From positions 1 to 64,000 of the forward strand of contig NZ_JAHVJQ010000014.1 of NCBI RefSeq assembly GCF_019801145.1: DNA of 64,000 nucleotides, given 5' to 3'. This DNA comes from Leisingera aquaemixtae. Lineage in GTDB: Bacteria; Pseudomonadota; Alphaproteobacteria; Rhodobacterales; Rhodobacteraceae. The notes beneath the pieces are model-generated. The model was not told where the DNA came from. It did no database searches and saw nothing but the letters and a program-made list of their open reading frames with translations. This document shows, in pieces, positions 16,213-52,325 of this stretch (positions within the stretch are counted from its first letter, which is position 1; each line of letters begins with the position of its first letter). Position numbers and translations under genes: made by a program.

Positions 16213-16221
16213 GGTCCTGGA

Positions 16222-26747: not shown

Positions 26748-29700
26748 TCACAGCAAGAGATCATTCACTCCGAAAACAGCCAAACCATCAAGGTCAATTG
26801 CCATCTCGGCATCCAGGTCACTGTCCAGATTGATTTCCAGAAGCGAGCGGGCCGTGTCGTACCTTACTTCTGCAGCGTCTGTGAATTCCTGGTCCCGGCC
26901 TATCCATGAAAGGGCTTGGACACCTGCCGTTTCCTGATCGCCGTCAATCCCGCTGAGATTGACCTTGTCGCCTTGCTGGCGGCTGAAATCGGTGATGGTG
27001 TCCCGCCTGTTTGCTCCCGGGCCGGAATCCCCGATGTTGAAAACAAACTCATCCGCGCCGCCCCCGCCTGTCAGCATGTCCGCTGCCGGGCCGCCGATCA
27101 GGCTGTCTCCGCCCTTGCCGCCAAGCAGAACATCCTTTCCGCCGCGCCCCAGCAAAGTGTCGCCGCCCTTGCCGCCAGCCAGCCGGTCGCCGCCGCTGCC
27201 GCCGTCCAGCCGGTCAGCCCCGCCAAGGCCGCTGAGCGTGTCAGCACCGCCCAGCCCAAAGATGCCTTCCGGCCCGCCGGTGCCCCTGAGGTTGTCGTTC
27301 TGCCCCGTGCCCCTGATGTCATCGTCCAGGATCTGCGTCTTGGCCCTGAGCACGCTGCTGGCCGCATTCAGCTCGGCCGGGAAACTGCCCGGCCTCAGCA
27401 GCAGGGAGAACGCCTCGGTCCCTTCGGCACGGTAGTCCGGCAACAGCCCGACATTGACCGCAGCTTTGGTTTGGCCCGGTGCAAAAGTCAGAACCCCCTT
27501 GGTTTCCACATAGTCCTGACCGGCCGTAGCGGAATTGTCCCTGGTGGCGTAGCGGATTGTCTGTGTCTCGCTGAATGGGTCTGACAAGGCGATTTCAAAT
27601 ACCGCGAACCGGCCGCCGCCCGGGGGTTCCTCGGCCTGGGTTGCAGTCACCTGAATGGTGCGGTCAAGGTTGACGCCGTCGTCGTCAAGGATGAATGCCG
27701 AACTGCGCAGCACCTTGCCTCCGCCCGCAAATTCCGCACCGGAAAGGCCGGACAATTTGATACCGAAGCTCTCGTCGCTTTCGATGTCATTGTCATGCCG
27801 GACCCGCACCTCAACGGTTTTCGAGGTTTCGCCGGGGGCAAAGACAAGAGTGTCGGAGAAGGCCGGGTAATCGATCCCTTCGGTGGCCGATCCTGCTACC
27901 GAGCTGTAGTCCACTTCAACCGCGTCTGCGGCGGGCTTCGAAAGGGTAAGGGTGAACACCACCGTGCCGCCAAAGCCGGCTCCGATGCTTTCAACCGCAT
28001 CAGCCGCGGAGACGGACAGCACCGGCCGCTTGCCGGCGCCATCGTCGTCGAGGATGGTTGCGGTGCCCACCAGCCCTTCGGCGGTGCTGCCGAGATCGCT
28101 GGTTGGGGTCACCGCAAGATGGAAAAATTCGGACGGTTCGACCGTTCTGTCACCGGTCAGCTCTACTTCGACCACTGCTTTGGTCTGACCGGGAGCAAAG
28201 CGCAGCTTGCCGCTTTGCGCGGTATAGTCATCACCAGCAACGGCGCTGCCGTCCTGCGTCGTGTAGTCGAACTCCAGCAAGCTGGCGGCCGGATCAGAGA
28301 GCTGCACTTCGAACAGCGCACTGCGGGCGCCGCCGTTGCCTTCCACAATCACCGGCGAAGACACCATAAGGGCGCGGTCCAGGTTGGCGCCATCATCGTC
28401 CAGAATAAAGGCATCCGCGCGCAGAACTTTGGATTTGCCCGCGAAGATACCTCCGGCCGGGTCGAACAGCTCGATGCCAAAATTCTCGTCGGTTTCAGTA
28501 ACGGTGTCATGCCTGACCCGCACCTCGACCGTTTTCGAGGTTTCGCCGGGGGCAAAAACCACCGTTCCGTCAAACCCGGGATAATCGATATCCTCATCCG
28601 CGGATCCGGCCCGCGAGCGGTAATTCACTTCAACGGTGTCCGCCGAAGGTTTTGACAGGGTGATGGTGAACACCACAATGCCGCCGAAGCCTGCTCCGAT
28701 GCTTTCCACCGCATTTGCGGCCGCCAGCGAGATCACCGGCTTGGCGCTGCCGTCGTCGTCAAGGATCGTTGCCGTTCCCGTCAGCCCCCTGGCCGAAGCG
28801 CCTAACCCGGCGCCTGGGGTGATTGACAGGTGGAAGAACTCGCTGAGCTCCACCGCCGTGTCGCCGGTCAGTTCGACTTCGACCACGGCCTTGGTCTGAC
28901 CGGGGGCAAACCGCAGGGTTCCGCTTTGCGCCGCATAATCCTCACCCGCTTTGGCGCTGCCGTCCCGGGTCGCATACTCGTATTCCAGCTGCGTTGGCGA
29001 GGCTTCGGAAATCTGCACCTCGAACAGCGCGCTGCGGGCGCCGCCGTTGCCTTCGACAATCATGGGGGATGAAACCGTCAGCGCGCGGTCAACGCCTGCA
29101 CCGTCATCATCGAGGATGAAGGCAGAGGCACGCAGCACCTTGGCCTTTCCGGCAAAGCTGGCACCGCTGGGATCGAACAGCTCAATGCCGAAATCCTCAT
29201 CCGTCTCATCCGCGGTGTCGTGGCGGACCCGGACCTCGACTTTCTGCACGGTTTCACCCGGGGCGAAGGTCACCGTGCCGTCAAAGGCGGGAAAATCTAT
29301 GTCCTCATCCGCAGAACCCGCCAGCGACCGGTAGTTCACGGTGACTGCATCTGCGGCGGGGCGCGAAAGCATCAGCGTAAAGACGACAATACCGCCAAAC
29401 CCCGCGCCGATGCTCTCAACCGCATCGGCCGAAACCAGGGACAGGAGCGGCTGACCGCCGCCGCCGTCATTGTCCAGGATGGTGGCGGTCCCTGCGAGCC
29501 CCTCAGCCGTTCCGCCGAGACTGGCGTCAGGGCTGACAATCAGGTGGAAGAACTCAGAAGGCTCTACCGCCTTGTCACCGTTCAGATCGACCCTGACCGT
29601 TTTTTCGGTCTGGCCCGGCTGGAATGTCACGCTGCCCGACTTTGCAGTGTAATCTTCACCTGCCGTGGCGCTGCCGTCCTCGGTCCGGTAGTCAAGCGTG

Positions 29701-30167
29701 ATGCTGGAAGCCGATGCCTCGGACAGGCGGATTGTGAATTCGGCTTTCTGGGTTCCTCCGTTGGCTTCTACGATCACCGGAGAAGACACAAAGACAGCAC
29801 GGTCCAGGCCCGCGCCGTCGTCATCCAGCACAAAGGCGGTCTGCCGCAGCACCGCTGCGCGTCCCGGGAAGGACGCCCCGCTTGGGTTGAACAGCTCCAG
29901 GACAAACCCCTCGTCGGTCTCATCAAGCGTGTCGTGACGGACGCGGAATTCGACCGTCTGGGTGTCCTCGCCCGGTGCAAACGTGATGGTCCCGGACTCC
30001 TCAGGATAGTCGATGTCTTCATTCGCGCTGCCGCCCATGGTGCGGTACTGGACCGTTACGGCGTCAGCCGGCACCTCGGACAGGGTTACCGTGAAAGTCA
30101 CGAACCCGCCAAACCCGGCTCCCACGCTTTCGATTGCGTCTGCGGAAGTAATGCTGATCGTCGCCAT
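26748..30167 (-). CDS. Calx-beta/RTX repeat protein, probable type I secretion substrate
   Basis: 1139 residues, no N-terminal signal peptide. Residues 1 to about 950 are eight Calx-beta domains in four pairs: odd copies carry A[10 protein letters not shown] and VRVRHDT motifs and close with LDDDGA, even copies start [11 protein letters not shown] and carry EFFHLxVTP. Each pair is about 235 residues, a four-fold super-repeat. From about 952 come RTX nonapeptides ([19 protein letters not shown] and relatives) binding calcium. The C-terminal 100 residues match the M10/serralysin-type C domain with [13 protein letters not shown] and end in hydrophobic DLLL, as type I secretion signals do. The ATG at 30167 has a GGGGGA site. 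A surface or adhesive role is inferred. No type I exporter genes lie in the window. Confidence 0.88.
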
Positions 30168-30969
30168 AGTGTCCCCCTGTCGAACTGCAGCGCCTGCAAG
30201 GCGCGCGTCTAAGACCGCCGCAGGCGGGCCGCGGCAGCACAATGGCCGCCTCGCGGAATGCGCGGGCAGTCACAACACTCCCTTCGCCAGGGCGCAGGTC
30301 TGCGGGAGGAACAGGTGTTTTCCCTGGCGGGCGGACACGCCGGAGCCAGCTGCCGGAGCAGCAGGGGAAACGCAACTATTTGCTGACTGGAACCCCAAGG
30401 CATGCCTGCATCGCGCAGAGGCAGCCAGAGACCGGAACCATTACCATCCCCAAATACCCCACAAAACAGCAACACCAAACAAGGGAGATAGTCCGAAAAT
30501 GATAAGGCCCTGCGGTTGATTGTGTCAACGATTGCCGCCGGGTGGTCGCGTACCTCCTTGCATGCGCCGAGTAGGTTCTTCTTGTCGCGGCGGAAAGTGC
30601 CGCCGCGGTCCAAGATCGGAGCTACGAAACTGCCGGAATCTTTGCAAAGGGTGCTTGGGCAAAGCGGAAACGCAAGGCATTCAGGGCGCGGTTGCGGCGG
30701 CGGCCCGGTCGGGTTTCAAGGCCTTCACAAAACCGCTGGGCCAGCCTGCCCTTCCAGATCCAGATGTTGAAAAGGCGCCCAGCGGCTCCCCAAGTGGACG
30801 CCACTTCTTGAAGCAAACGGCTACATTTGGACGGACGGCCTTGATCTGCAAAAAAGGGAAGGTGTGGCGGCTGGCTAATTTGACTTCGAGAAGCTGGAAC
30901 CGCTGATCGACGAGCTCGATGCAAGAGTGAAGGCAAACATGGCCGGCGGTTTGAGGAAGCCAGCCTTCC
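30168..30969. other. 800-base region without a confident gene
   Basis: Lies between two minus-strand genes. It holds several short frames on both strands, none with a ribosome site or domain. Around 30880-30960 the plus strand reads a short charged helix-like peptide (FEKLEPLIDELDARVKAN) interrupted by stops upstream, which looks like a decayed gene tail that I cannot identify. The left part must contain the promoter of the Calx-beta/RTX gene. Composition at 30400-30520 is more AT-rich than the average. Confidence 0.45.
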
Positions 30970-32445
30970 CTATCCGCCAAAGGCATGCGCCCCCGCCAGC
31001 CGGCCGAAGACAGATCCGCTGATCAGGCCGGTCCCGCCTGGATAGTTGAAATAGAAGACCCCCCCGACCAGTTCCCCTGCCGCGAACAGGCCCGGGATCG
31101 GCGCAAGGTCATTGTCCAGGACCTGCGCGCTGTCCGGGTCGATCCTCAGGCCGCCGAAGGTGAAGGTGATGCCGCAACCCACCTGGTAGGCTTCGAACGG
31201 GCCTTCGGCGATGGTGTTCGCCCAATTGGATTTCGGCACGCTCAGCCCCCGGGTGCCTCGGCCGTCCTTGATATTCGGGTCAAACGGCGTGCTGGTGTCC
31301 ACCGCTGCATTGTAGGTGCGGATTTCATCGAGAAAGCCTTGCGGGTCGACCCCCTCCAGCTTCTGCGCAAGCTCCTCCAGCGTCAGGGCCGTCACTTTGG
31401 TCACCCGTTTGATGCGGTATTCGTCTCGCAGCAGATGGGTGACTTTGGCATCGAAAACCTGCCAGGCGAACTGGTCCGGCTGGTTCAGGATCACCCGGCC
31501 GTACTTGGCATAGGTGTAGTTGCGGAAATCCGCGCCTTCATCCACAAACCGGCGCCCCATGGCGTTCACCATCACTCCCCAGGGGTAGGAATGCTTCTGG
31601 AAGCCGTCGCCCACATCCAGGTCGCCGAACTCCGGCGCGTTGTAGTCCCAGCCGACCGCGTGGCAGCCCGACCAGTTGCCATAGGTGGAGGCACCCGCCG
31701 CCATCGCCATCTTGATGCCTTCGCCGGTGTTGAAGCGGGAACCGCGCACCCGGGCCATCTCCCAGCCAGGGCCGAGGTAGCGGGTACGCATTTCCGGGCT
31801 GGCCTGAAAGCCGCCCGAGGCGATCACCACAGATCTTGCCCGCAGGTCCCGGAGTTCTCCCCTGTGGCGAATCTTGACACCGGTCACCGCATAACCGTCG
31901 GTCAAGATCTCCACTGCACGGGTTTCATAGCGGATCTCGACACCAGCCTCTTTGGCAATTCCGGTGTGTGCATCCACCAGGCCGGGGCCGCCGCCCCAGG
32001 CCTCAAGCGTCAGCCCGCCCCAGAATTTGAACCGGCCATCGACCTTGAACGCCTGCCGCCCGTAGATCGGCATGAAGCGGATGCCCTTGCCGCGCATCCA
32101 ATGCATAGTTTCTCGCGAGGCGGTCACCAGCCGTTCGCATAAGTTGGGGTCGGTGCGGTAGCGGGTGACGCGGAACATGTCGTCAAAGAATTGCTCTTGC
32201 GTGTAGGTGCCAAAGTCGGTGATCGCGATCTGCTCTTCGCTCAGGTCGGGGCAGAGCGCGCGGATATCGTCCGCGCCATCATAGGCAAAGCGGATGGCGC
32301 CTGCGGTATAGCGGGAGTTGCCGCCGTTTTCCGCCTCGGGCGCGCATTCCAGCATCAGCACGCTTGCCCCCTTTTCCCGTGCGGCGTGGGCAGCGCAAAA
32401 TGCCGCATTGCCGGCCCCGATAATGATCGTGTCCCAAGTGGTCAT
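30970..32445 (-). CDS. FAD-dependent dehydrogenase, tricarballylate dehydrogenase (TcuA)/fumarate-reductase family
   Basis: 491 residues. The flavin-binding motif is IIIGAGNAAFCAAHAARE, and the C terminus has GLFAAGELVGGVFYFNYPGG, as in TcuA-type members of the fumarate-reductase/succinate-dehydrogenase flavoprotein family. Such enzymes desaturate or reduce a C-C bond next to a carboxylate. Two starts are possible: GTG at 32454 overlaps the ribosome site AAAGGAG, so the ATG at 32445, 8 bases from that site, is chosen. It is the last gene of a six-gene operon for an N-methylated compound and follows the ThDP enzyme by 5 bases. No TcuB electron-transfer partner is present, so the electron acceptor is unknown. 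Confidence 0.85.
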   Translation of the reverse strand: MTTWDTIIIGAGNAAFCAAHAAREKGASVLMLECAPEAENGGNSRYTAGAIRFAYDGADDIRALCPDLSEEQIAITDFGTYTQEQFFDDMFRVTRYRTDPNLCERLVTASRETMHWMRGKGIRFMPIYGRQAFKVDGRFKFWGGLTLEAWGGGPGLVDAHTGIAKEAGVEIRYETRAVEILTDGYAVTGVKIRHRGELRDLRARSVVIASGGFQASPEMRTRYLGPGWEMARVRGSRFNTGEGIKMAMAAGASTYGNWSGCHAVGWDYNAPEFGDLDVGDGFQKHSYPWGVMVNAMGRRFVDEGADFRNYTYAKYGRVILNQPDQFAWQVFDAKVTHLLRDEYRIKRVTKVTALTLEELAQKLEGVDPQGFLDEIRTYNAAVDTSTPFDPNIKDGRGTRGLSVPKSNWANTIAEGPFEAYQVGCGITFTFGGLRIDPDSAQVLDNDLAPIPGLFAAGELVGGVFYFNYPGGTGLISGSVFGRLAGAHAFGG

Positions 32446-32450
32446 GGCAC

Positions 32451-34133
32451 TCACTCCTTTACCGGCGCTGTGAACAGATCCTTGCGCAGGGTCATCAGCG
32501 CACCCGGATCAATCTTGCCTTGAATGATGGTGGTCTCATTGCTGGCGATCGCCGCCTCCAGCGCCGGGCCCATTTCGCCGGGACCATCCACCCAGATGCC
32601 CCTGCCGCCGCACAGTTCCGCAAATTTGTCATAGCGCGGCGAGGTGATCTCGGCCCCCAGAAGGCGGCCGCCATAGAATTCCTGCTGATAGGCTTTCTCG
32701 GCCCCCCAGGCCTCATTATCCAGGACCACCACAATGACCGGCAGCCTGTGCTGAATGGCGGTCTGTATCTCTATCATCGTGTAGCCCGCGGCGCCGTCGC
32801 CCATCACTGCCACAACCGGGCGCTCCGGCGCGGCAGCCTTGGCGCCGATGGCCGCCGCCAAACCAAAGCCGACCAGGCCGAAGTCCAGCGGCGTGATCAG
32901 GCTGAGGGGCTCGTAATGCGCCAGCCGGTCGGCGGCCTGCAGGCAGGTGTTGCCAGTGTCAAGCGTAACGATGGCGCTCTCCGGCAGTGCAGCGCGGATC
33001 TCTGCCAACGCCCGCCGCGGGTGCATCGGCAGGGTGGCGATCCGCGCTTCCTCCGCTCGTTCAGCAGCGAGGCTTTCCATATCGGATTTAAAACTCGCGC
33101 GCCATTCATCCGCAGCTGGTTTCGTCGCGGCTGCGGCCAACGCCTCAGCCGTCAGCCGGGCATCGGCCTGCACCGCGACCTCGGCCGGAAAGTAGCGGCC
33201 CACGGCAGAGCTATCGATGTCCACATGGGCGATGCGTGTCTCCGCGCCGACATAGTCGTTGCTGTGGAAGGTGGAGTTGAAACCCAGCCGCGCGCCCAGC
33301 ACCACCATCACATCGGCTTCCTTGGTCAGGCGGCTGGCTACCCGGTTGCCGCGCGGGCCGGCCTGACCTGCAAACCAGGGATGGCCGTGGCGCATCACGT
33401 CCGCGTGGCCGGTCGAGGCCACCACCGGCAGCTCCAGCGTTTCGGCCAGGGCGGTCAGCGCCGCGCGCCCTCTGCCCCATTTGAAGCCGCCGCCTGCAAA
33501 GATCACCGGGCGTTTTGCGGTGGAAAGCATTGCCGCGATGGCGCTGATATCTTCCGGCGCCGCAGGCCCCGGGCGGGCGATGTTCACCGGCTTGGGGTCT
33601 ACGGCCGCAACTTCGGCGGCAAACAGGTCGCGCGGCACATGCAGCACCACCGGCCCGCGGCGGCCTGAATTGGCCAGCCGGATCGCATCCTCCAGCATCG
33701 GCGCCAGACGCGCCGGATCGGTGACCATGACCGAGCGTTTGGAGATCGGTGCAAACAGCGCCACTTGGTCAACTTCCTGAAAGGTGTCCTTGGCCTGGTC
33801 GGCCCGGGTGATGGCGCCAGCGATCACCACCAGCGGCGAATAGGCCAGTTGCGCCTCGGCCACGGCGGTCACGATGTTGACCACGCCCGGTCCCGCCTGC
33901 GCCCCCAGCACCACCCCGGGCTTGCCAGTCATCCGCGCCCAGGCGTCGGCCATATGGCCCGCCGCACGCTCATCCCGGGCGCCAATGTAGGCAATTTCGC
34001 CGTCCTGATACATCGCGTCGTACAACTCCAGCATCGACCCGCCCAGCAGGCCGAATACGGTATCGATGCCATTGGCCTTCAAAACGCGGTAGACGGCCTC
34101 GCCTCCGGTGATCTTGGTGTTGATTGTGGTCAT
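32451..34133 (-). CDS. ThDP-dependent acetolactate-synthase-like enzyme
   Basis: 560 residues. All parts of the ThDP decarboxylase/carboligase fold are present: the N-terminal pyrimidine-binding domain with catalytic Glu in GARDERAAGHMA, a middle domain, and a C-terminal pyrophosphate domain with GDGAAGYTMIEIQTA and the metal-binding Asn of VVLDNEAWG. It is close to the large subunit of acetolactate synthase, but no small regulatory subunit is nearby and the context is catabolic. Relatives include sulfoacetaldehyde acetyltransferase, glyoxylate carboligase and oxalyl-CoA decarboxylase. It probably cleaves or condenses the keto acid or aldehyde made by the aminotransferase of the same operon (inference). 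Start ATG at 34133, 4 bases after the stop of the preceding gene. Confidence 0.85.
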   Translation of the reverse strand: MTTINTKITGGEAVYRVLKANGIDTVFGLLGGSMLELYDAMYQDGEIAYIGARDERAAGHMADAWARMTGKPGVVLGAQAGPGVVNIVTAVAEAQLAYSPLVVIAGAITRADQAKDTFQEVDQVALFAPISKRSVMVTDPARLAPMLEDAIRLANSGRRGPVVLHVPRDLFAAEVAAVDPKPVNIARPGPAAPEDISAIAAMLSTAKRPVIFAGGGFKWGRGRAALTALAETLELPVVASTGHADVMRHGHPWFAGQAGPRGNRVASRLTKEADVMVVLGARLGFNSTFHSNDYVGAETRIAHVDIDSSAVGRYFPAEVAVQADARLTAEALAAAATKPAADEWRASFKSDMESLAAERAEEARIATLPMHPRRALAEIRAALPESAIVTLDTGNTCLQAADRLAHYEPLSLITPLDFGLVGFGLAAAIGAKAAAPERPVVAVMGDGAAGYTMIEIQTAIQHRLPVIVVVLDNEAWGAEKAYQQEFYGGRLLGAEITSPRYDKFAELCGGRGIWVDGPGEMGPALEAAIASNETTIIQGKIDPGALMTLRKDLFTAPVKE

Positions 34134-34137
34134 GGTC

Positions 34138-36549
34138 TCAATCCTCGGAACGGGGCCGCAGGTTCTGCGGGTCAAAAACTGCTTCATCATGGATGGTCAC
34201 CGGGAATTCCCGGTTCAGGATCTGCACGGTCAGCCCTTCGCACGGCGTGCCCTTGCGGACAAAAAGCCAGCCCAGCGACTTGCCAACCGTGTAGCCATAA
34301 CCGCCGGAGGTGGTCAGGCCGACGGGCTTTCCCTCCCGCAGCACCGGCTCGCCGCCATGGATATCGATGCCGTCCGCGTGAAGTTCGGCGTAGAACAGCT
34401 CCCAGCCCGGATCGCGGGACAGCAAGGCTTCCTTGCCCAGAAACTCCCGGCCTTCCGCCGCCACAAACCGCTCCAGCCCCACATCCAGCGGCCCCGCGTC
34501 GGTGGTCAGCTCGCCGGAGGCACGGTAGGCCTTCTCCATCCGCATGCCGTTGAAGGCATAAGACCCCAGATCGGCCAGCCCGTGTTTCTCTCCGGCTGCA
34601 AACAGCGCGTCGTAGAGTTCGCCGATCTGCTCCAGCGGCGCGTGCAGTTCCCAGCCAAGCTCCCCCACGAAGGAAACGCGCAGGGCGTAACAGGGTACAC
34701 CCGCCACGGTGATCTCCTGCGCCGACAGCCAGGGGAACGCCCGGTTCGAGAGGTCCGCATCCGTCAGCTCCGCCAGGATCCGGCGCGAGGCCGGGCCGGA
34801 GAGCGCCAGCATGCCCCAATCCTGGCTGCGATTGATCATCCGCACGTCCTCGCCGTCGTGGATATGTGATTTGAGCCAGTCAAAATCCGGGTTAGCGCGG
34901 GCAATCGGCGAGCCGGTGAAATAGCGGTCCTTCGCGATGCGCCAGATGGTGATTTCGGTCTCGAACCGGCCTTTCACTGTCAGCAGGTGGTTGAGGCTCA
35001 TCCGCCCGTCGCGGAGCGGAAGCTTGTTAGCCGACAACCGGTCCAGCAGTGCACCCGCGTCCCTGCCGGTGATTTCAAACTGGGCAAAGGCACAAAGGTC
35101 GATGACGCCGGCCGCCTCTCTTGTTGCCTTGGCCTCCGCCATTGCGTTGGCATGCCAGGGCTGATGGCCCCAACCGATCTGCTCTGTCTCGCCGACCTCA
35201 CCAAAGTAGCGCGGCCGTTCCCAGCCCGCGACCTCACCGAACACCGCCCCCTTGGCGGCCAGCCGGTCGTAGAGCGGGTGGCGGTTCAGCGGGCGAAGGC
35301 TCTCGAACTGCTTGCCGGGGCATGGGGTGTCATGGCGGCGCATGAACTCGTCCTTGGTGCGCTCTACGATGAAATGATCAGTCGAGAAATTGCCATAACG
35401 GCGCGGATCGAGACCGCGCGTATTGATCTGGGTCTCGCCATGCACCATCCAGTCGGCCAGCACCTTGCCCGCACCGCCGCCCCAAGCAAGGCCGATGGAA
35501 GAGCCGCAGCACAGCCAGACATTCGGCGCGCCCGACGGTCCCACCAGCATACCGCCATCCGGCGTATGGGTGATCGCTCCGCGCACCACGCGTTTGATGC
35601 CCAGCTCCGCCAGCACCGGCATCTTGCCGAACGCCACCATCAGAAAACCGCCGATGGAGTCGTAATCCGCTTCGAACAGCTCATTCTCCGCGGCCCAGGG
35701 CGCGCCCTGCGGCATCTCCCAGACGGTGGGGCAGACATGGCCCTCGTAGATGCCAATGAGGCCGGATTTCTGCTCCTGCCGGATATAGCCGCCATAGGCA
35801 TTGTCGCGCATCACCGGCAGCTCCGGGCGGTCCACGAACTCAGGAACGGTATCTGTCACCAGATAATGATGCAGGCAGCTGACAGACGGAATTTTCAGCC
35901 CGAACCATTTGCCGACTTGATTGGCATAAGACCCTGCTGCAATCACCACATGTTCGGCCAGCACATCGCCTTTTTCCGTGCGCAACAGCCACATACCCCC
36001 CTTGCGCGAGGCGCCCAGCACCTGGTTGCGGCGCTCGATCTTCGCGCCACGCGCCCGGGTGGCTGCTGCCAGCGCCATGGTGACGGATGAAGGGTCGATA
36101 TGGCCGTCCTCAAAGGTGCGCACGGCCGCCTTGACGCCGTCCACCTTGTAAAAAGGGTTCACCCGGGCGACTTCCTGCGGGCCAACCAGCTCCATCGGCA
36201 GGTCCAGCAATTTGCCGACCCCCATGATCGACTTCATCCAGTCGACCTCATCATCGGTTGTCGCAATGCGGAAACCGCCGACCTCATGCCAACCGATGCT
36301 CTGGCCGGTCTCCTTCTCAACCCTCTTGTAGGTCTCGATCGAGGTCTTGTTGATCCAGCCCATCAGCCGGCTGCCGACTGCGTGGGCAATTTGCCCCGCC
36401 GCATGCCAGGTGGAGCCGGAGGTCAGCTCAGCCTTTTCAAACAGGATCGTGTCGGTCCAGCCGTTCTCGGCCAGCTGGAACTGGGCCGCCACACCCATGA
36501 TACCGCCGCCGATAATAGCGACTTGTGTGGTGCGGGTGATGTCAGTCAT
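34138..36549 (-). CDS. GcvT-family FAD-dependent demethylating oxidoreductase (copy 2)
   Basis: 803 residues. DAO-type FAD domain with VAIIGGGIMGVAAQF and the covalent-flavin-type STWHAAGQIAHA segment, then a GcvT-like folate domain near the C terminus with a GYGYTVGKSLGW stretch. It probably oxidises an N-methyl group and loads the carbon onto tetrahydrofolate. It overlaps the next upstream gene by 8 bases. The ATG at 36549 is chosen over a TTG at 36555 because an AGAGG site is 9 bases away. Having two enzymes of this type in one operon suggests removal of two methyl groups in sequence, as in dimethylglycine then sarcosine oxidation. Confidence 0.88.
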   Translation of the reverse strand: MTDITRTTQVAIIGGGIMGVAAQFQLAENGWTDTILFEKAELTSGSTWHAAGQIAHAVGSRLMGWINKTSIETYKRVEKETGQSIGWHEVGGFRIATTDDEVDWMKSIMGVGKLLDLPMELVGPQEVARVNPFYKVDGVKAAVRTFEDGHIDPSSVTMALAAATRARGAKIERRNQVLGASRKGGMWLLRTEKGDVLAEHVVIAAGSYANQVGKWFGLKIPSVSCLHHYLVTDTVPEFVDRPELPVMRDNAYGGYIRQEQKSGLIGIYEGHVCPTVWEMPQGAPWAAENELFEADYDSIGGFLMVAFGKMPVLAELGIKRVVRGAITHTPDGGMLVGPSGAPNVWLCCGSSIGLAWGGGAGKVLADWMVHGETQINTRGLDPRRYGNFSTDHFIVERTKDEFMRRHDTPCPGKQFESLRPLNRHPLYDRLAAKGAVFGEVAGWERPRYFGEVGETEQIGWGHQPWHANAMAEAKATREAAGVIDLCAFAQFEITGRDAGALLDRLSANKLPLRDGRMSLNHLLTVKGRFETEITIWRIAKDRYFTGSPIARANPDFDWLKSHIHDGEDVRMINRSQDWGMLALSGPASRRILAELTDADLSNRAFPWLSAQEITVAGVPCYALRVSFVGELGWELHAPLEQIGELYDALFAAGEKHGLADLGSYAFNGMRMEKAYRASGELTTDAGPLDVGLERFVAAEGREFLGKEALLSRDPGWELFYAELHADGIDIHGGEPVLREGKPVGLTTSGGYGYTVGKSLGWLFVRKGTPCEGLTVQILNREFPVTIHDEAVFDPQNLRPRSED

Positions 36550-39022
36550 GCGCAAACGCCTCTTTGGCAGGTTTCAGCGACGCGCGGGCGGCATAGCGCG
36601 TGCAGGCGATTTCAACCTCGAAGCCCCTGACAACCGCCCCTTCCAGAAGCGCAGAGGGCAGCGCCTGACCCTGGGTGGGCGCATCGCGCCCTCCCGTGGG
36701 GAGGGTCGGGCGCGGCCCGGCGGTGCCGCCGGGCGGGACGTCAATCATCGCCAGCGCAACCGAGCGGCCATATTTGTAGCTCCAGGCGGCCGAGGTGATC
36801 TGGCCCACAACTTGGCCGCCGTAGTAAACCGGCTCATCATGGATCGGGATCGCCTCCGGGCCGTCAAACAGAATCGAGACGATCCGGCGCTCCGGCCTGT
36901 GGTCCAGCAAAGCCGCTTCGCCTACGAAGCCGGTACCAAAGGCGCAGAATGCCTCCAGCCCGGCCTCCTGCGGCGTGGTGCCGGGGCCCAGTTCATGGCC
37001 AAAGGCCCGGAAACCGCTTTCGATCCGCAAGGAGCCGCTGGCATAAAGCCCGGCGTGGCTTGCGCCCGCTGCTACTAGCGCCTCATAGGCCGCCATCGCC
37101 ATATCGGCGGGGATGTAGAGCTCATAGCCCTCCTCGCCGGTGAAGCTGAGGCGACCGGCCCAGCCGCGCGCCAGGCCGATCTCAACCGGGCCAAACTGGA
37201 AGCGTTTCAGGTCCGGCACAGGACTGTTTGAAGTGGCTTGCAGCACCTCGCGAGCCTGTGCGCCCGCCAAACCAAGGATTGCATAGCCGCTAGTCACATC
37301 GGTGAACTCCACGCGGAAGTCACCTTTGGTTTCCCGCATCCGTTTCAGATCGCGCACCACTTCGCCGGCGCCGGCGATCATCAGATAGGTCTCCGGCCCG
37401 TGCCGCTGCACAGTGATGTCGCTTTCGATGCCGCCCTTGCGGTTCAGGATCTGGGCATAGGCGATACGGCCCTCAGGAATGTCCATCTGCGCGGCGCAGA
37501 GATGGTTGAGGAAGGCGCAGGCATCCGGCCCCTGCACCCAAATCTTGCCAAAGGCGCTCTGATCCAGAATGGCGGCGCCGCTGCGGCAGGCCTCCACCTC
37601 GCGGCCCACCTGATCACGCCAGGCAGGCACCCCGAAGGTCAGCGGCAGATGCGCCGCCTCGCCACCGAAATGCACCGCCCGCTCCCAGCCGCCCCGGCTT
37701 TCAAACCTTGCACCGGCCGCAACCAGACCCGCGTGGATGGGCGAGCGGCGCTGGCCGCGGGCGGTCTCCATCGACCGCCCCGGATAGGGATTGTCATAGT
37801 GGCGGCCTAGCACTTCGGGGATGCGGGCCTCTAGCGCACCCAGCACGTTCATCTCGGGGCTGAAGCGGCGGATATCAGCCTCATTCAGATCCATCGCCGG
37901 CTCGCCCGCGATGATCCATTCCGCCATCGCGCGCCCTGCCCCGCCTGCCAGCGCGATGCCGGTGGAATTCATGCCGCCCATCAGGAACAACCCCGGCACC
38001 TCGGGGCTTTCCCCCAGCATGAACTGGCTGTCGAGGGTGAAGCTTTCGGGGCCATTGAGAAGCATCCGCACCTCAGCCCTCTCCAAGGCGGGGATGCGGC
38101 GCAGGGCGTTTTCCATCATCGGCGTGAAGTGGTCCCAGTCCTCGTCCAGCAGGTCAAAGGAAAAGTCCTTGGGCAGCCGGTCCAACGGCAGCCCCTTAGC
38201 GTGGGGTTCGAAACAGCCGACCAGAAGGCCCTCGACATCGTCGCGGGCGTATAGGAAGGCATCCTGATCGTTCAGCGTCGGCAGATGCGCGCCCTTGCCG
38301 AGCGCCTGCACCTCCTGCAACGGCTTGGTCAGAATGTAGAAATGCTCGCAGGCATATAGCGGCATATGGGCGCCCGCCATTGCCGCAACTTCACGGGACC
38401 AGAGGCCGCAGGCGATCACCACTTCCTCCGCCTCGATTACATGGCCGCCAATCTCAACGCCGGCAATCCGCCCGCCTTTCTTCCGCAGGCCTGTAACGGC
38501 GGTGTCCTCAGAAATCTGCACCCCCCGTGCCCGCGCGCCCTTGGACAGCGCCAGCGCCACATCCGAGGGGTTCACCCGCCCGTCAGCAGGCGACCAGACA
38601 GCGCCAATCACATCGTCTGTTTCAATCAGCGGCCACAGCTCCTTGGCGCGGGTGGCATCCACCACCTCGGCCTCGAGGCCAAAGGCACGGCCCAGCGACA
38701 CCTGCCGCTTAATATTGGTCAGCCGGTCCGGGTTGGTGGCCAGCGTCAGCGAACCTGTCTGGGTCCAGCCGGTGGCCTGGCCGGTCTCAACTTCCAGTTC
38801 GCCATAAAGGTCGATCGAGTAGTTGATCAGCCTGGTCAGCGTCGCCGAGGGCCGCAGTCGGCGCACCAGCCCTGCCGCGTGCCAGGTGGTGCCGCTGGTC
38901 AGCTTGGAACGTTCCAGCACCACGATGTCCGTCCGCCCCTCGCGGGCGAGGTGGTAAGCAATGGAACAGCCGGTAACGCCGCCGCCGATGATCACGGTCC
39001 GGGCGCGGGAAGGCAGAGTCAT
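36542..39022 (-). CDS. GcvT-family FAD-dependent demethylating oxidoreductase (copy 1) with repeat insertion
   Basis: 826 residues, about 20 more than its paralogues. FAD motif VIIGGGVTGCSIAYHL and TTWHAAGLVRRL with the presumed covalent-flavin His; a GcvT-like folate domain follows. Near the C terminus a Pro/Gly-rich stretch of about 27 residues (starting PPGGTAGPRPTLP and ending TQGQALP) breaks an otherwise conserved strand between AMIDV and SALLEG. At the DNA level it is a palindromic element (36656-36736). The reading frame is kept, so the protein is probably still made, with a flexible loop. Its start at 39022 overlaps the aminotransferase stop by 4 bases. The role is presumed demethylation of a tertiary amine. 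Confidence 0.88.
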   Translation of the reverse strand: MTLPSRARTVIIGGGVTGCSIAYHLAREGRTDIVVLERSKLTSGTTWHAAGLVRRLRPSATLTRLINYSIDLYGELEVETGQATGWTQTGSLTLATNPDRLTNIKRQVSLGRAFGLEAEVVDATRAKELWPLIETDDVIGAVWSPADGRVNPSDVALALSKGARARGVQISEDTAVTGLRKKGGRIAGVEIGGHVIEAEEVVIACGLWSREVAAMAGAHMPLYACEHFYILTKPLQEVQALGKGAHLPTLNDQDAFLYARDDVEGLLVGCFEPHAKGLPLDRLPKDFSFDLLDEDWDHFTPMMENALRRIPALERAEVRMLLNGPESFTLDSQFMLGESPEVPGLFLMGGMNSTGIALAGGAGRAMAEWIIAGEPAMDLNEADIRRFSPEMNVLGALEARIPEVLGRHYDNPYPGRSMETARGQRRSPIHAGLVAAGARFESRGGWERAVHFGGEAAHLPLTFGVPAWRDQVGREVEACRSGAAILDQSAFGKIWVQGPDACAFLNHLCAAQMDIPEGRIAYAQILNRKGGIESDITVQRHGPETYLMIAGAGEVVRDLKRMRETKGDFRVEFTDVTSGYAILGLAGAQAREVLQATSNSPVPDLKRFQFGPVEIGLARGWAGRLSFTGEEGYELYIPADMAMAAYEALVAAGASHAGLYASGSLRIESGFRAFGHELGPGTTPQEAGLEAFCAFGTGFVGEAALLDHRPERRIVSILFDGPEAIPIHDEPVYYGGQVVGQITSAAWSYKYGRSVALAMIDVPPGGTAGPRPTLPTGGRDAPTQGQALPSALLEGAVVRGFEVEIACTRYAARASLKPAKEAFAHD
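36656..36736. repeat. REP-like palindromic element inserted in frame
   Basis: Two neighbouring stems: CCCTCCC (36689-36695) with GGGAGGG (36699-36705), loop GTG; and GCCCGGCGG (36715-36723) with CCGCCGGGC (36725+1 to 36734), loop TG, a perfect 9-bp stem. The 81-base stretch is 27 codons, matches no part of the paralogues and keeps the frame open. It looks like a repetitive extragenic palindrome that landed within coding DNA. No second copy was seen in this window. Confidence 0.7.
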
Positions 39023-40308
39023 TGCAGCACTCCGTCCTGAACAAGCGCGGCAAACACTGCATCAAAGGCGTCCAGCGCCTCGTCTATCAGTTCCGGGGTA
39101 TGCGCCGCGGAGGTCACGCAGGAGGTATGGCTCATCAGATCCACACCGCGCGCCAGCAGGCCGCCGCGCAGGCCAGCCACCAAGACAGGTGGCACGCTGC
39201 GGATTTCAACCGGGTTCAGCCCCGCCGGGTCGGCTGCACCGAACAGCAGGTGGCAGGTTGAACTCTCCCCGTAGGCGCATCCCGCGATGCCGTGCCGCGC
39301 CATCAGCGCATTAAGGCCGTCGCGCAGGCGCTCTGCCATGGCATCGGCCTGTGCCTGCGCCTCTCCGGTGGCCAGAAGCGGCATCGCCGCGCAGGCGGCC
39401 GCGGCAATCAGGGGGGAGCCGTTAAAGGTCCCCTTGTGGCTGACCGGCGGCGACAGCCCGTCCCGCGCAGCGGAATTGTTCATCAGCTCCATGATCTCCG
39501 CCCGGCCGCAGACGGCACCGCCCGGCAGGCCGCCGGTCGCGACCTTGGCCAGCGTCGTCAGATCCGGCACGATATCGTCTCGCGCCTGCCGCCCGCCAGG
39601 CGACCAGCGCAGGCCAGTAATGATCTCGTCAAAGATCAGCACCGCCCCGGCGGCCCGGGCCGTGTCATGCAGGGCGCGCAAAGTTTCCACGGGCAGCGGT
39701 ACAGAGCCATAGTTGGCCCCGGAGGCTTCGATTATCACGGTGCCGATGCTGTTGTCCTGCAGGGCCGCTTGCATTGCCAGCGGATCGGCGGCGCAGACCT
39801 CGATCAAGCCCGTCACCGCATCGGGTACGCCCAGCGACGCAGCTTGCAGACTGCCCGCCTTGGCCCCTTTCAATGTGTGGTCGTGCCAGCCGTGATAATG
39901 GCCGTCGGCCCGCAGCACCTTGTCCCTGCCGGACCAGGCCCGGCCAAGCCGGATCGCCAGCATGGTCGCCTCGCTGCCCGAAGCGGTGAAACGGGTGCGT
40001 TCGGCGCAGGGAAACAGCCGGTTGACCCATTCCGCCCATTCGATCTCGGCCTCGTGGCAATCGGCGCTGAATATCGCGCGGGCGGCCTGCCGCTGCAGCG
40101 CCTCGACGACTGCAGGGTGGCCGTGGCCCAGCATCTGGCTGGCGGATCCCATCTTGAAGTCGATGTAGCGGCGGCCCTCCGCATCCCATTTCTCAGCGCC
40201 TGCGGCGCGTTCAACATAGATGGGGTGCGGCGCGCGGTAGCGCAGCTCGTGGCTGACGCCGCCCGGCAGCGCCGCAAGGGCGCGGTTGCTCAGTTCGCTG
40301 TTGCTCAT
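39019..40308 (-). CDS. Class III aminotransferase, glutamate-1-semialdehyde-aminomutase-like
   Basis: 429 residues. PLP fold type I, with FTASGSEATMLAIRL, the DEIITG pair of residues around FDEIITGLRW, and the PLP lysine in TTLAKVATGGLPGG. The closest broad group is glutamate-1-semialdehyde 2,1-aminomutase, but this group also holds beta-amino-acid and other omega aminotransferases. Here the catabolic setting makes heme synthesis unlikely. It overlaps the methyltransferase stop and the downstream oxidoreductase start by 4 bases each. In the inferred pathway it would remove the amino group after the methyl groups are gone. The substrate is not known. Confidence 0.87.
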   Translation of the reverse strand: MSNSELSNRALAALPGGVSHELRYRAPHPIYVERAAGAEKWDAEGRRYIDFKMGSASQMLGHGHPAVVEALQRQAARAIFSADCHEAEIEWAEWVNRLFPCAERTRFTASGSEATMLAIRLGRAWSGRDKVLRADGHYHGWHDHTLKGAKAGSLQAASLGVPDAVTGLIEVCAADPLAMQAALQDNSIGTVIIEASGANYGSVPLPVETLRALHDTARAAGAVLIFDEIITGLRWSPGGRQARDDIVPDLTTLAKVATGGLPGGAVCGRAEIMELMNNSAARDGLSPPVSHKGTFNGSPLIAAAACAAMPLLATGEAQAQADAMAERLRDGLNALMARHGIAGCAYGESSTCHLLFGAADPAGLNPVEIRSVPPVLVAGLRGGLLARGVDLMSHTSCVTSAAHTPELIDEALDAFDAVFAALVQDGVLQ

Positions 40309-41852
40309 GCGGGCCTGCCAATCTGTTCACGGGTGAGCCGGATATCAAAGGCCGCGCGCAGCGCGCGGTCGGTCTCATCGCTGACATGCTGCGGAAAATG
40401 CGCGCCCAGAATTTCGCGGGCCGTGTCCCGCGCCGCCTCGCCAACCGGCCGGGCGCCATCCTCCTGCCATTCGCGCGGAGACCTGCGGTCGCCAATGTGC
40501 GGATAGAAGTAGTCGGATTTCATCCGCTCAAAAGTGTGCTGCTCCCCCAGATAGTGGCCTTCACCGCGGCACACCTGGGCGATCACATCGGCGGCAATGT
40601 TTTCCGGCGTGGCCTCGACCCCGCGGATCGTGCGCAGGACGTTGCCCAGCAGGTCATTGTCGCTGACATAGGCCGCATGGCTGACGCCCAGCAGGCTCGC
40701 CTGCATGCCCGCTGCCTGGGTGACGATGTTAGCCCCTGCATGGGCAGCCATCGCCACGGCCAGGGATTTCTCGGCGCCATATTGCGCGTCCAGGCACTTG
40801 GAATCAGTGATCCCCGCGATGGAGGAGACCGGCAGGCCGAAATGCCGCCCCATCTGGGCCGCGCCCGCCATCAGGATTGCCTGCTCGCCGCCGCCGCCGC
40901 ACATCGACCCGGTACGCAGATCGGCCACCAGCGGCTTGGGGGCAAAGATCGCTTTGGCCTCCGGGTCCACCAGCCGTGCAAACACCAGCCCGGCCAGGGT
41001 TTCGGCAACCGCCTGCACCAGCGACCCGGCGATTGTGGCGGGGCTGGTCGCCCCGGCCTGGCCCGCGCTGATCAGCTGCACCGGGAACCCTGCGTTGATC
41101 GCGGCCTCCAGCACCTCGCAGGCTTCCTCGGCAAAGCGCATCGGCGGCACCACATGGCAGACCATCACCGTCAGGAAGGGCCGCGCCCGGAACGCGGCTT
41201 CGCCGCCGGCGATCTGGTAGCAGAGATCCGCGATTGACCGCACGTTCTCCGGGGTGCTGATAGAGATCGAGACATGCTTGGAGGTGCCCATCAGACAGGC
41301 ATAGGCGGTGTTTAGATCCATCGCTGCGTTGTCTTCGATGTCGCGGGCCACCACCGAGCGGCTGAAGTGGTGGATATTCTCCATCCGGTCGACAATCCGC
41401 GCCGCGTCATACAGGTCCGCCAGCGTCGAGTCGCGATAGGCCCCGGTGTCGAGGTCGAACACCCCCGGTGCCGCGCCGCCGGTCGACATGTGGACCCGCG
41501 CGCCACAGATCTGCAGATCGTTTTCCGGCTCCTGGCCGCACAGCTTGAACGCCTTCTGCGCGCCTTCAACGGCCCATCGCACCAGCGCCCGCGGAAACAG
41601 CAGCCTGTGGTCTTCGGTCAGCTGCCCGCCCGCGGTGCAGACCTTGTCGATCATGGACGGAATGGCCTGGCTCAGCCCTAGCGTTTCCAGAAGCGACAGC
41701 GCGGTCTCTTCGATCAGCGCAACCTCCGCAGGCGCAAGCGGTTTCAGCCGCCCGCCTTCAACACCGGGCCACACTGGCCTTACGCTGCCAGCCTCGCTGG
41801 CCGCATTGAGCCGCTCCTTGCGCCCTCGCCTTCGTTTTCCGGATGCCGCCAT
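40305..41852 (-). CDS. MttB-family (non-pyrrolysine) methyltransferase
   Basis: 515 residues of the trimethylamine-methyltransferase family. The frame has no internal amber codon, so it belongs to the non-pyrrolysine branch, whose known members demethylate glycine betaine (MtgB), carnitine or proline betaine. Family pieces are visible: HMSTGGAAPGVFDLDTG, VSISISTPENVRS, and a TGSMCGGGGEQAILM stretch near the barrel end. No corrinoid protein is encoded nearby, so the methyl group may go to a distant corrinoid protein or to tetrahydrofolate. It is the first gene of the six-gene operon, divergent from a LysR gene. The ATG at 41852 is chosen over a TTG at 41879; the ribosome site is weak. Confidence 0.87.
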   Translation of the reverse strand: MAASGKRRRGRKERLNAASEAGSVRPVWPGVEGGRLKPLAPAEVALIEETALSLLETLGLSQAIPSMIDKVCTAGGQLTEDHRLLFPRALVRWAVEGAQKAFKLCGQEPENDLQICGARVHMSTGGAAPGVFDLDTGAYRDSTLADLYDAARIVDRMENIHHFSRSVVARDIEDNAAMDLNTAYACLMGTSKHVSISISTPENVRSIADLCYQIAGGEAAFRARPFLTVMVCHVVPPMRFAEEACEVLEAAINAGFPVQLISAGQAGATSPATIAGSLVQAVAETLAGLVFARLVDPEAKAIFAPKPLVADLRTGSMCGGGGEQAILMAGAAQMGRHFGLPVSSIAGITDSKCLDAQYGAEKSLAVAMAAHAGANIVTQAAGMQASLLGVSHAAYVSDNDLLGNVLRTIRGVEATPENIAADVIAQVCRGEGHYLGEQHTFERMKSDYFYPHIGDRRSPREWQEDGARPVGEAARDTAREILGAHFPQHVSDETDRALRAAFDIRLTREQIGRPA

Positions 41853-41899: not shown

Positions 41900-41933
41900 C
41901 ATTTACAAATGGTCATTGCTCAGCAACTAATGA
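41900..41933. promoter_or_regulatory. Candidate LysR operator in the divergent gap
   Basis: Two symmetric sites lie in the 105-base gap: CATTTACAAATG (41900-41911), a 12-bp palindrome, and TCATT followed 11 bases later by AATGA (41913-41917 and 41929-41933). The second fits the T-N11-A pattern of LysR boxes. Their position between the methyltransferase operon and the LysR gene supports a regulatory role. Confidence 0.5.
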
Positions 41934-41957
41934 GCTGTACTCATCTATGGACTCCGC

Positions 41958-42848
41958 ATGCTGCCGTCTCTCTCCGCCCTGCGCGCCTTCGAAGCCGCCG
42001 CCAAAACGGGCAGCTTCCGCGCCGCAGCTGAGAACCTCTCCGTGACCCCCACCGCGATCAGCCACCATATCCGCGGCCTCGAGGAGCAGCTCGGCACCAA
42101 GCTGTTCAAACGCTCCGGGCGCGATGTGGTTCTGACGGAAGACGGGCAGCGGCTGGCCGAAACGGCGGTTCAGGCCTTTGGCATGCTCGATGATGCGGTC
42201 CGCGCGCTCAGGCGCACCTCCCGCAGGACCGTGCGTATTGCCGCCGGCCCCATTTTCACGGCCCGCTGGCTGATGCCGCGGATCAGTGATTTCTGGGAAC
42301 AGCACCCGGGAACCGGACTGGAGGTGGTACCGACGTATCAGCCGGGCGCGCAAGACCGGGAAAACGTGGATATCGTGATCCGCTGGGAACGCATGTCGGA
42401 GATGCCTGAAGGGGCCGTCAAACTGCTGGAACTAAGTCCGGTGGCGATTGCGTCAAGGGACTTCCTCACCCGGTTCGGCCCGGTGAAATCACCGGCAGAC
42501 CTGCTGCAATTGCCGCTGCTGCACCAGCGGAACCATTGGGGCTGGCTGGACTGGTTCTCAGCGATGGGCGTGCGGGTTCCTGACACCTTGCGCGGCCCGG
42601 TGTTTGAGGACGCCAATGTTCTTCTGCGCGGCGCGGCGGAAGGCCAGGGTGTGATTGTTGGATGGCTGCCGCTGATTGACCAGGATCTAACCGAAGGCAG
42701 AGTTGTGCGCTTGTTTGACGAAGACATCACGCCAACCCATGGGTATTTCCTGGACGTGCGCAAAGGCAACCAATTGCGCCGGCAAACACGGGTCGCCATC
42801 GACTGGCTGACAGCCCAAAGCGCCCAAGGTTATTTTGGCCGCTATTGA
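41958..42848 (+). CDS. LysR-family regulator, GcvA-like, divergent from methyltransferase operon
   Basis: 296 residues. The N terminus (LPSLSALRAFEAAAKTGSFR, then ENLSVTPTAISHHIRGLEE) is a GcvA-type winged helix-turn-helix, and the rest is a LysR effector domain. GcvA relatives often control glycine or one-carbon metabolism genes, which would fit a neighbouring demethylation operon that produces methylene-tetrahydrofolate. It is transcribed away from the MttB-family gene, and palindromes in the gap are likely its binding sites. The effector is presumably the operon substrate or an intermediate. Confidence 0.88.
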   Translation: MLPSLSALRAFEAAAKTGSFRAAAENLSVTPTAISHHIRGLEEQLGTKLFKRSGRDVVLTEDGQRLAETAVQAFGMLDDAVRALRRTSRRTVRIAAGPIFTARWLMPRISDFWEQHPGTGLEVVPTYQPGAQDRENVDIVIRWERMSEMPEGAVKLLELSPVAIASRDFLTRFGPVKSPADLLQLPLLHQRNHWGWLDWFSAMGVRVPDTLRGPVFEDANVLLRGAAEGQGVIVGWLPLIDQDLTEGRVVRLFDEDITPTHGYFLDVRKGNQLRRQTRVAIDWLTAQSAQGYFGRY

Positions 42849-44895: not shown

Positions 44896-44898
44896 CGC

Positions 44899-45942: not shown

Positions 45943-46040
45943 CTGGTTTTCTCCTTTGGATGGCACGCGGCACAGGGCACCCGGGCCGCGAGGGCGCAGC
46001 TTGTTTCCTTGCTGTCAGCTGAATTTGAGTGGGAGGCGGC

Positions 46041-47168: not shown

Positions 47169-47320
47169 GGTGGTTCTCCCTGCTGTCATGTAGCGCCCGT
47201 CTTTGACTGTTTGTGTTTCGGGGCTGGCTTCAGCGTGGCGGAATGGCTGCAATAGAACAAACGATGTTTATCGAACCGTTCAGATCGAATAGATTCATCT
47301 GAAATGGTGCCTGAAGGATC

Positions 47321-49147: not shown

Positions 49148-49150
49148 GAC

Positions 49151-50308: not shown

Positions 50309-50357
50309 GTGCTGACTTCCTTCTGTTAGGTGGATTGAGTGGCGGACAGCGGGCAAG

Positions 50358-51653: not shown

Positions 51654-51657
51654 GACG

Positions 51658-52263: not shown

Positions 52264-52287
52264 GCGCCGTCCTCCTCAGCCGGTGCA

Positions 52288-52312: not shown

Positions 52313-52325
52313 GGGAAAGTGGGGA

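Follow-up and report, generated by a model that had tools for sequence, protein, structure and literature searches.

Which compound might the genes between positions 30970 and 41852 of a 64,000-nucleotide stretch of Leisingera aquaemixtae (contig NZ_JAHVJQ010000014.1; the whole stretch is called the window below) enable the cell to degrade? The six genes, all on the minus strand, code for an MttB-family methyltransferase (MttB), a class III aminotransferase, two flavin demethylases with GcvT domains (GcvT-A and GcvT-B), a thiamine diphosphate (ThDP)-dependent enzyme and a TcuA-like flavoprotein, and a LysR-type gene diverges from them. This set had been proposed in a first-pass annotation of the window; we find every gene where it was placed, and Pfam and NCBIfam profiles agree with the families that were named. 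We consider it likely that these genes form a regulated operon for the breakdown of one particular trimethylammonium compound, probably an osmolyte that occurs in marine animals or algae.

From the genes and their families, their conserved order, the exchange of one module between relatives and the presence of the corrinoid protein MtgC, all described below, we infer each chemical step, the order of the steps and the kind of substrate. MttB would take one methyl off the quaternary nitrogen and load it onto the Co(I) of MtgC, which is coded elsewhere, and MtgD would then pass it to tetrahydrofolate. GcvT-A and GcvT-B would oxidise the remaining two N-methyls in turn, handing them to tetrahydrofolate as methylene and leaving a primary amine, which the aminotransferase would convert to an aldehyde or keto compound. 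The ThDP enzyme would cleave or decarboxylate this carbonyl compound. The TcuA-like flavoprotein, and in relatives also an aldehyde dehydrogenase resembling betaine aldehyde dehydrogenase (BADH), TcuB, a class II aldolase or an amidase, would process the product or else an uncommon precursor; TcuA would be dispensable, as many relatives lack it or have a broken copy. The LysR protein would sense the substrate or an intermediate. In a second operon type, an iron-sulfur flavoprotein of the Old Yellow Enzyme (OYE) type would replace demethylation and transamination in one step, most simply by oxidative removal of dimethylamine.

The first-pass annotation had outlined this course from trimethyl compound to carbonyl compound to cleavage. 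An operon with conserved order is borne out, and the course has a plausible logic, for which a plain glycine betaine route would have no need; the link that it drew between the ThDP enzyme and sulfoacetaldehyde is not supported in the form given. More tentatively, and as a possibility that falls short of probable, we propose a marine pathway that fully degrades an animal-derived betaine other than glycine betaine and ends in a new ThDP-dependent reaction. It would have been built twice, with a one-step flavoprotein releasing dimethylamine (type B) or with demethylation and transamination that keep all methyls and the nitrogen (type A), and would be one of up to 19 parallel MttB pathways feeding one corrinoid protein.

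A conserved operon in two forms

A scan of named genomes gave at least 70 loci, of which the 67 with a ThDP relative of at least 56% identity were kept; L149-L151 (ThDP 25-33% identity) were excluded, and all counts out of 67 are among the matches listed. Among 295 genomes of the window's family, relatives of the ThDP enzyme with at least 66% identity occur in nine further genomes besides its own. The operon type was called by tblastn: type A, to which the window belongs, has the aminotransferase, GcvT-A and GcvT-B, and type B has the OYE-type flavoprotein of about 650 residues. In 56 of the 67 loci the available sequence reaches at least 8.5 kb beyond the ThDP gene on its upstream side, and in all 56 MttB lies upstream on the same strand. 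Type A accounts for 39 of them and type B for 16, none has both, and the single locus with neither (L137) has MttB and both GcvT genes and lacks only the aminotransferase. With short contigs included, MttB was detected in 60 of the 67 loci, type A in 40 and type B in 22, and five were neither. The gene set is thus a real conserved unit and not a chance grouping, and the conserved order that the first-pass annotation had proposed to look for elsewhere is there, for MttB in 56/56 loci and for the full arrangement of the window in 39/56.

The two types are related by a single exchange. When the state was scored as A in the presence of either the aminotransferase or both GcvT genes (hence L137 counts as A), it changed once on the MttB tree and once on the ThDP tree. 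Rooted with a sister family, the ThDP tree has type B at its base and type A as a nested clade of 44 rows with support 100, made of 42 rows scored A plus L088 and L115, two unscorable short contigs in which GcvT-B and TcuA adjoin the ThDP gene. Forcing the 42 type A rows alone together gave a worse tree (p of the approximately unbiased test, p-AU, 0.030), since L088 and L115 fall inside. The ancestral operon was probably MttB-OYE-ThDP, and one lineage would have swapped the OYE gene for the three-gene module while keeping the first and last enzymes. Because both trees place the exchange only once, either module probably converts the MttB product to one and the same carbonyl compound, which the ThDP enzyme would then use.

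In Ruegeria pomeroyi DSS-3 the operon lies on the megaplasmid (SPO_RS21380 to SPO_RS21400, with the LysR gene SPO_RS21405), and in Ruegeria sp. THAF33 on a plasmid. Judged by record titles, the other holders include Leisingera ANG strains, many Ruegeria strains, Halocynthiibacter, Paenihalocynthiibacter styelae, Limibaculum from a brittle star, Pelagibius and several alpha- and gammaproteobacterial metagenome-assembled genomes (MAGs). Many of them are presumably associated with animals, as judged in part by strain names (coral, squid gland, sea squirt), and coral and squid strains are heavily sequenced. One MAG titled Gammaproteobacteria bacterium SB0677_bin_2 (L110) carries a type A operon whose ThDP enzyme is 84% identical to that of the window and falls within an otherwise Rhodobacterales-titled clade, which may reflect gene transfer or a mis-binned contig. 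The match titled Oceanobacillus sp. HTM 045 (Bacillota; L120) equals that of G004, a genome placed in the window's family; either the label is wrong or the assembly is mixed, in all probability.

TcuA is the gene of the operon whose presence varies most. The window's protein has an FAD_binding_2 domain and exceeds the cut-off of the 'TcuA' profile NF006130 (577.3 against 369), and it stays below that of TIGR02485; no gene of TcuB size was called beside it. Window-type TcuA was detected within 10.5 kb in 21/67 loci (11 type A, 8 type B, 2 too short to class), another TcuA-like family in 9/67, and TcuB-like genes, accompanying that other family, in 8/67. Behind the ThDP gene of R. pomeroyi, TcuA (L067 17674-19138, 87-89% identity) is spread over two frames and apparently frame-shifted, and in Ruegeria sp. 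THAF33 only pieces are left (L068 15877-16339), so that the gene seems easily lost. A BADH-like aldehyde dehydrogenase (at least 55% identity) was found in 13/67 loci, all of type A, and more distant ones lie near three type B operons; an amidase occurs in 9/67 (8 A, 1 B) and a class II aldolase in 3/67. When the genes of the 67 loci were clustered at 40% identity or more, no family apart from the operon and these accessory genes appeared in more than four loci.

The enzymes and the shared corrinoid protein

The ThDP enzyme is the last conserved enzyme of the operon. It is a three-domain protein with the motif WGAEK (W495-K499) and a catalytic-type glutamate, E74 (P0002 numbering). Its best NCBIfam profiles are those of the sulfoacetaldehyde acetyltransferase Xsc, at 410.3 and 390.2 bits against cut-offs of 620 and 676.4. 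As a true Xsc it was rejected, since the TIGR03457 score (390.2, or 388.3 in a second search) is far below the cut-off of 676.4 and the protein falls in a separate clade. It was likewise rejected as a biosynthetic acetolactate synthase (ALS), with 359.3 bits on TIGR00118 against a cut-off of 538.35. In a quick tree of 44 rows, in which Xsc, pyruvate oxidase and some rows from the L. aquaemixtae genome have long branches, the ThDP clade has support 92, the five Xsc rows 100 and the four ALS rows, which group elsewhere, 98; the ThDP clade is sister to a family of 44-47% identity (joint support 95). WGAEK and a C-terminal R[RK]D motif are common to the ThDP enzyme, Xsc and this sister family and are not found in ALS or pyruvate oxidase. 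Judged by profiles, tree and motifs, the enzyme belongs to a distinct Xsc-related clade.

A grouping with biosynthetic ALS, which the first-pass annotation had named as an outcome that would speak against its reading, is not seen. Its link to sulfoacetaldehyde through Xsc is supported neither by the profile score nor by the tree. We surveyed 33 holders for Xsc, MtgC and MttB (17 of the 22 type B and 16 of the 40 type A), and a protein above the Xsc cut-off is present besides the ThDP enzyme in 31 of them; the L. aquaemixtae genome also holds a true Xsc, at 935.6 bits. No solved Xsc structure for a comparison of the pockets was found at E below 1e-90. The sister family (L042-L052, in genomes of the window's family) has a gene order of its own, aldehyde dehydrogenase - luciferase-like oxidoreductase - AA_synth (PF06684) - alpha/beta hydrolase - ThDP enzyme, profiled at one locus (L048) and matched by similar gene sizes elsewhere; we found no paper tying this family to homarine or trigonelline.

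GcvT-A and GcvT-B each contain DAO, FAO_M, GCV_T and GCV_T_C domains in this order, as in dimethylglycine and sarcosine dehydrogenases. They share 31% identity, and the nearest solved relative of GcvT-A is dimethylglycine dehydrogenase. A third such protein in the window, 42% identical to GcvT-A, belongs to a second cluster of quaternary-amine type (9762-17274) that also codes for a choline-kinase-like protein, the permease and ATPase of an ATP-binding cassette (ABC) transporter and an OpuAC substrate-binding protein. The nearest solved relative of the aminotransferase is D-phenylglycine aminotransferase (254.8 bits), followed by glutamate-1-semialdehyde aminomutase. An assignment to the latter was rejected (TIGR00713, 252.8 against a cut-off of 527.3).

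MttB matches PF06253 across its whole length (467.4 bits, profile positions 1-491 of 500). Its reading frame is open without a pyrrolysine codon, and Ile348 (P0006) aligns to the residue given as X in the solved trimethylamine methyltransferase 7xcl, which we take to be pyrrolysine. The nearest solved structure is MtgB (191 bits), and the protein is 96% identical to MttB of Leisingera aquimarina. In a tree with the 12 other paralogs of its own genome, in which several long-branch rows make the deep placement unsure, a single clade (47 rows, 100/100) unites the MttB proteins of both operon types; three further type B rows make up a small group next to it, and nine of the paralogs form a distant group. 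Several of these paralogs adjoin GcvT-DAO genes (e.g. L055, L057, L059, L061), and two more, distant ThDP enzymes (C12:36292 and C12:108347) lie within about 8 kb of MttB paralogs. The genome probably runs many parallel quaternary amine pathways.

Against its 13 MttB-family genes, that of the operon included, the L. aquaemixtae genome has one B12-binding_2 protein, a corrinoid protein of 232 residues that adjoins a DUF1638 gene. MtgC (SPO2160) and a DUF1638 protein (SPO2162) of R. pomeroyi likewise have close locus numbers in the main text of Mausz et al. 2025 (PMC12478193), where MtgC and MtgD are reported to be required for glycine betaine demethylation and methionine synthesis and where up to seven pfam06253 open reading frames (ORFs) per genome are read as pointing to additional substrates. 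All 33 holders examined, including MAGs titled Gammaproteobacteria and Hyphomicrobiales, have an MtgC ortholog (72-96% identity), and four of the 33 genomes have an additional weaker match (31-40% identity). The same genomes have 4-19 MttB matches each (median 12), where split genes at contig ends may count double. MtgC, which also serves methionine synthesis, is therefore probably the methyl acceptor, and since each holder combines it with many MttB matches, the operon is probably one of many inputs to one shared corrinoid hub.

Which substrate?

Several observations weigh against a catabolic operon for one trimethylammonium compound as drawn above. The operon genes include no transporter, no MtgC and no MtgD, and MtgC may be common in the holder lineages regardless of the operon. 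The aminotransferase could have a substrate other than the demethylated amine, and the role of TcuA is left unexplained by the proposed pathway. The accessory genes vary (hydantoinase A/B, racemase-type enzymes, aldolase, 2-hydroxyacid dehydrogenase) and do not converge on one substrate. As for type B, the OYE protein scores 267 bits to 2,4-dienoyl-CoA reductase against 139 to trimethylamine dehydrogenase. In the latter a cysteine carries the flavin mononucleotide (FMN), and Tyr169, in the numbering of that enzyme, has a functional role; by eye, the OYE protein has no equivalent of either residue.

Within the trimethylammonium reading, the substrate might be the betaine of an alpha-amino acid, such as that of an unusual amino acid or homoserine betaine from diacylglyceryltrimethylhomoserine (DGTS) lipids, although we regard this sub-case as somewhat unlikely. 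The aminotransferase would yield a 2-oxo acid, the ThDP enzyme would decarboxylate it, and the BADH-like enzyme of many type A operons would oxidise the aldehyde. Such a route agrees with the nearest solved aminotransferase, which takes an alpha-amino acid, with the close aldehyde dehydrogenase family in 13/40 type A operons, and with the class II aldolase, D-2-hydroxyacid dehydrogenase and class I/II aminotransferase ahead of MttB at L127. It fits poorly with a ThDP enzyme that lies nearest the Xsc side and not with known 2-oxo-acid decarboxylases, and a common amino acid as the product would need no dedicated ThDP enzyme.

Are the two modules equivalent at all? Given that the OYE protein resembles 2,4-dienoyl-CoA reductase more than trimethylamine dehydrogenase and lacks the FMN-bearing cysteine, release of dimethylamine by this protein is a guess. 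In the three records examined out of 131, OYE relatives on plasmids lie beside cupins, polyamine-type ABC genes, a flavin adenine dinucleotide (FAD) oxidoreductase and a succinate-semialdehyde dehydrogenase, neighbours that are no more than suggestive of amine metabolism. Types A and B could serve different compounds, with only the first and last steps in common, and the missing amine dehydrogenase cysteine and the accessory genes, which differ between the types, would agree with this. We nevertheless consider such a divergence unlikely, given that MttB and the ThDP enzyme remain orthologous through a single exchange and that TcuA-like and amidase families accompany both types.

Taurine betaine (N,N,N-trimethyltaurine) had been among the candidates of the first-pass annotation. 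As a further sub-case of a trimethylammonium substrate it would be demethylated to taurine and transaminated to sulfoacetaldehyde, which a second, divergent Xsc would convert to acetyl phosphate and sulfite. The motifs WGAEK and R[RK]D, which the enzyme has in common with Xsc and which ALS and pyruvate oxidase lack, would suit this route, and several holders have coral, squid-gland or sea-squirt names. PMC5557254 describes taurine betaine as abundant in Madracis corals, and a table of PMC8708981 lists taurobetaine for a Phorbas sponge. In the text of PMC4334477, SPOA0309 of R. pomeroyi appears as a sulphoacetaldehyde acetyltransferase in a 2014 annotation; by gene order, with the methionine gamma-lyase SPOA0318 (so described in the text of PMC9870897) nearby, SPOA0309 is probably the ThDP gene of the operon. 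One type B locus is near an NMT1-type binding protein and an ATPase that is nearest TauB, below its cut-off.

A protein above the Xsc cut-off is also present in 10/10 holders of the window's family against 176/285 other genomes of that family (Fisher p 0.015). However, the association is unspecific, as holders of the sister ThDP family have such a protein in 12/13 cases (p 0.036), and for this reason we did not use it as proof of a sulfonate. The operon's own enzyme reaches only 390.2 bits against the Xsc cut-off of 676.4 and stands in a separate clade, a second Xsc would be idle in the 31/33 holders that already have a true one, and the operon contains no Pta, sulfite or sulfonate gene. No link between taurine betaine and R. 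pomeroyi was found in the open-licence papers searched. Because the ThDP enzyme is not Xsc by profile or by tree, taurine betaine becomes only one candidate among several, and a decidedly doubtful one.

A second glycine betaine system, in which MttB and the GcvT proteins would give glycine, the aminotransferase glyoxylate, and the ThDP enzyme would join glyoxylate like glyoxylate carboligase (Gcl), is very improbable. GcvT-A does resemble dimethylglycine dehydrogenase and MttB is nearest MtgB among solved structures, but the best-scoring profiles for the ThDP enzyme are those of Xsc and ALS, with no Gcl model among the best 25 of 53, and it keeps a catalytic glutamate that Gcl lacks. The L. 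aquaemixtae genome also contains 12 further MttB-family genes, some of them next to other GcvT-DAO genes. In a table of PMC9723723, SPOA0310 (GcvT-B, judging by gene order) appears under 'Glycine' with higher expression late in a co-culture with a diatom; against this, the pfam06253 proteins that rise on N-osmolytes in PMC12478193 are SPO2108 and SPO2134, and its main text names no SPOA locus.

Operon layout, neighbouring genes and known systems

The features are listed in the table below. The tight packing noted in the first-pass annotation is confirmed, with spacings of -8 to +5 bases for the most plausible starts: MttB and the aminotransferase overlap by 4 bases, the aminotransferase and GcvT-A by 4, and GcvT-A and GcvT-B by 8; GcvT-B and the ThDP gene are 4 bases apart, and the ThDP gene and TcuA overlap by 4 (GTG start) or are 5 apart (ATG start).

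Features of the operon and its control region (window coordinates)
Feature	Position	Strand	Basis
Divergent LysR-type regulator, GcvA-like	41958..42848	+	profiles; below GcvA cut-off
Candidate operator, palindrome CTCA-N8-TGAG	41919..41934		between LysR gene and MttB; putative function
MttB-superfamily methyltransferase without pyrrolysine	40305..41852	-	profile, alignment to 7xcl, tree
Class III pyridoxal phosphate (PLP) aminotransferase, candidate PLP lysine K255	39019..40308	-	profiles, nearest solved structures
GcvT-A, FAD + folate-domain N-demethylase (dimethylglycine/sarcosine dehydrogenase type)	36542..39022	-	domains, nearest structure
GcvT-B, second FAD + folate-domain N-demethylase	34138..36549	-	domains
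ThDP-dependent enzyme, clade related to Xsc	32451..34133	-	profiles, tree, motifs
TcuA-like FAD dehydrogenase, start GTG 32454 or ATG 32445	30970..32454	-	profiles

The best NCBIfam profile of the LysR protein is GcvA (NF008352, 244.5 against a cut-off of 288), and a LysR gene of the same family lies within 10.5 kb in 38/67 loci. A site of the form CTCA-N7..10-GAG is present in 24/32 type A intergenic rows, the window included. The palindrome remains a candidate operator for the operon, because its one exact match in the window is also what chance would give (0.84 expected). Scans of the window gave four promoter-like sites (1.9 expected), none of them ahead of MttB, and ten terminator-like sites (9.7 expected).

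Beside the LysR gene lies a putrescine/agmatine set (44005-47252) with an N-carbamoylputrescine amidase above its cut-off and an agmatine deiminase-like and a PotF-like binding protein, both below theirs. At 48362-53330 we found genes of a tripartite ATP-independent periplasmic (TRAP) transporter (DctP and DctM, with a small gene where DctQ would lie) together with genes for a nitrilase-like protein and for an M24 protein resembling creatinase/prolidase. The TRAP, creatinase-like and nitrilase genes adjoin the operon end in genome G193 (L033), and no called relative of them above 45% identity was found in the 67 loci. A long repetitive ORF of about 1140-1164 residues (26748-30242) has repeats and a tail that resemble, we presume, Calx-beta and RTX-type calcium-binding repeats.

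Among the R. pomeroyi locus tags searched, SPOA0309, SPOA0310 and SPOA0318 alone turned up, in three papers, and in the main texts of the open-licence papers searched we found no published description of the operon. Betaines rank high among the nitrogen compounds of marine organisms in abundance, and what we found on aerobic MttB proteins (main text of PMC12478193) deals with glycine betaine alone. The operon recurs, also in the model strain R. pomeroyi DSS-3, and its gene content argues against plain glycine betaine; knowing its substrate would provide a marker gene with which to follow a marine nutrient flux now hidden from view.

How does the operon compare with known systems? Its flavoprotein is like the tricarballylate dehydrogenase TcuA in exceeding the cut-off of NF006130 and in having a TcuB-like gene near some relatives, but the window operon has no TcuB and TIGR02485 is not reached. 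The GcvT proteins have the domain make-up of dimethylglycine and sarcosine dehydrogenases, one of which is the nearest solved relative of GcvT-A, whereas the operon pairs two paralogs of just 31% identity and continues with enzymes unnecessary for a pathway that ends in glycine. The sister ThDP family (L042-L052) is a sister clade 44-47% identical to the window's enzyme, yet no MttB, GcvT or aminotransferase gene of the operon's families was called there (L045, L049 and L052 being poorly called). Xsc provides the best NCBIfam profiles of the operon's ThDP enzyme and has the same WGAEK and C-terminal R[RK]D motifs, whereas the operon's enzyme is far below the Xsc cut-offs, in a separate clade and in a genome with a true Xsc besides.

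The first step of the pathway is of a known kind; its combination with an aminotransferase and this ThDP clade, the exchangeable OYE module and the number of MttB proteins per MtgC are undescribed in the literature that we found. The main text of the MtgBCD paper contains neither 'SPOA' nor 'thiamine' nor 'aminotransferase' (PMC12478193). With MtgBCD of R. pomeroyi the operon has in common an MttB-superfamily enzyme without pyrrolysine, the same MtgC (33/33 holders) and its occurrence in aerobic marine bacteria. It differs in an MttB clade apart from the 12 other paralogs of its genome and in the addition of an aminotransferase and a ThDP enzyme, and the 4-19 MttB matches per genome suggest that B12-dependent demethylation forms a broader network than the 'up to seven' given in that text would imply.

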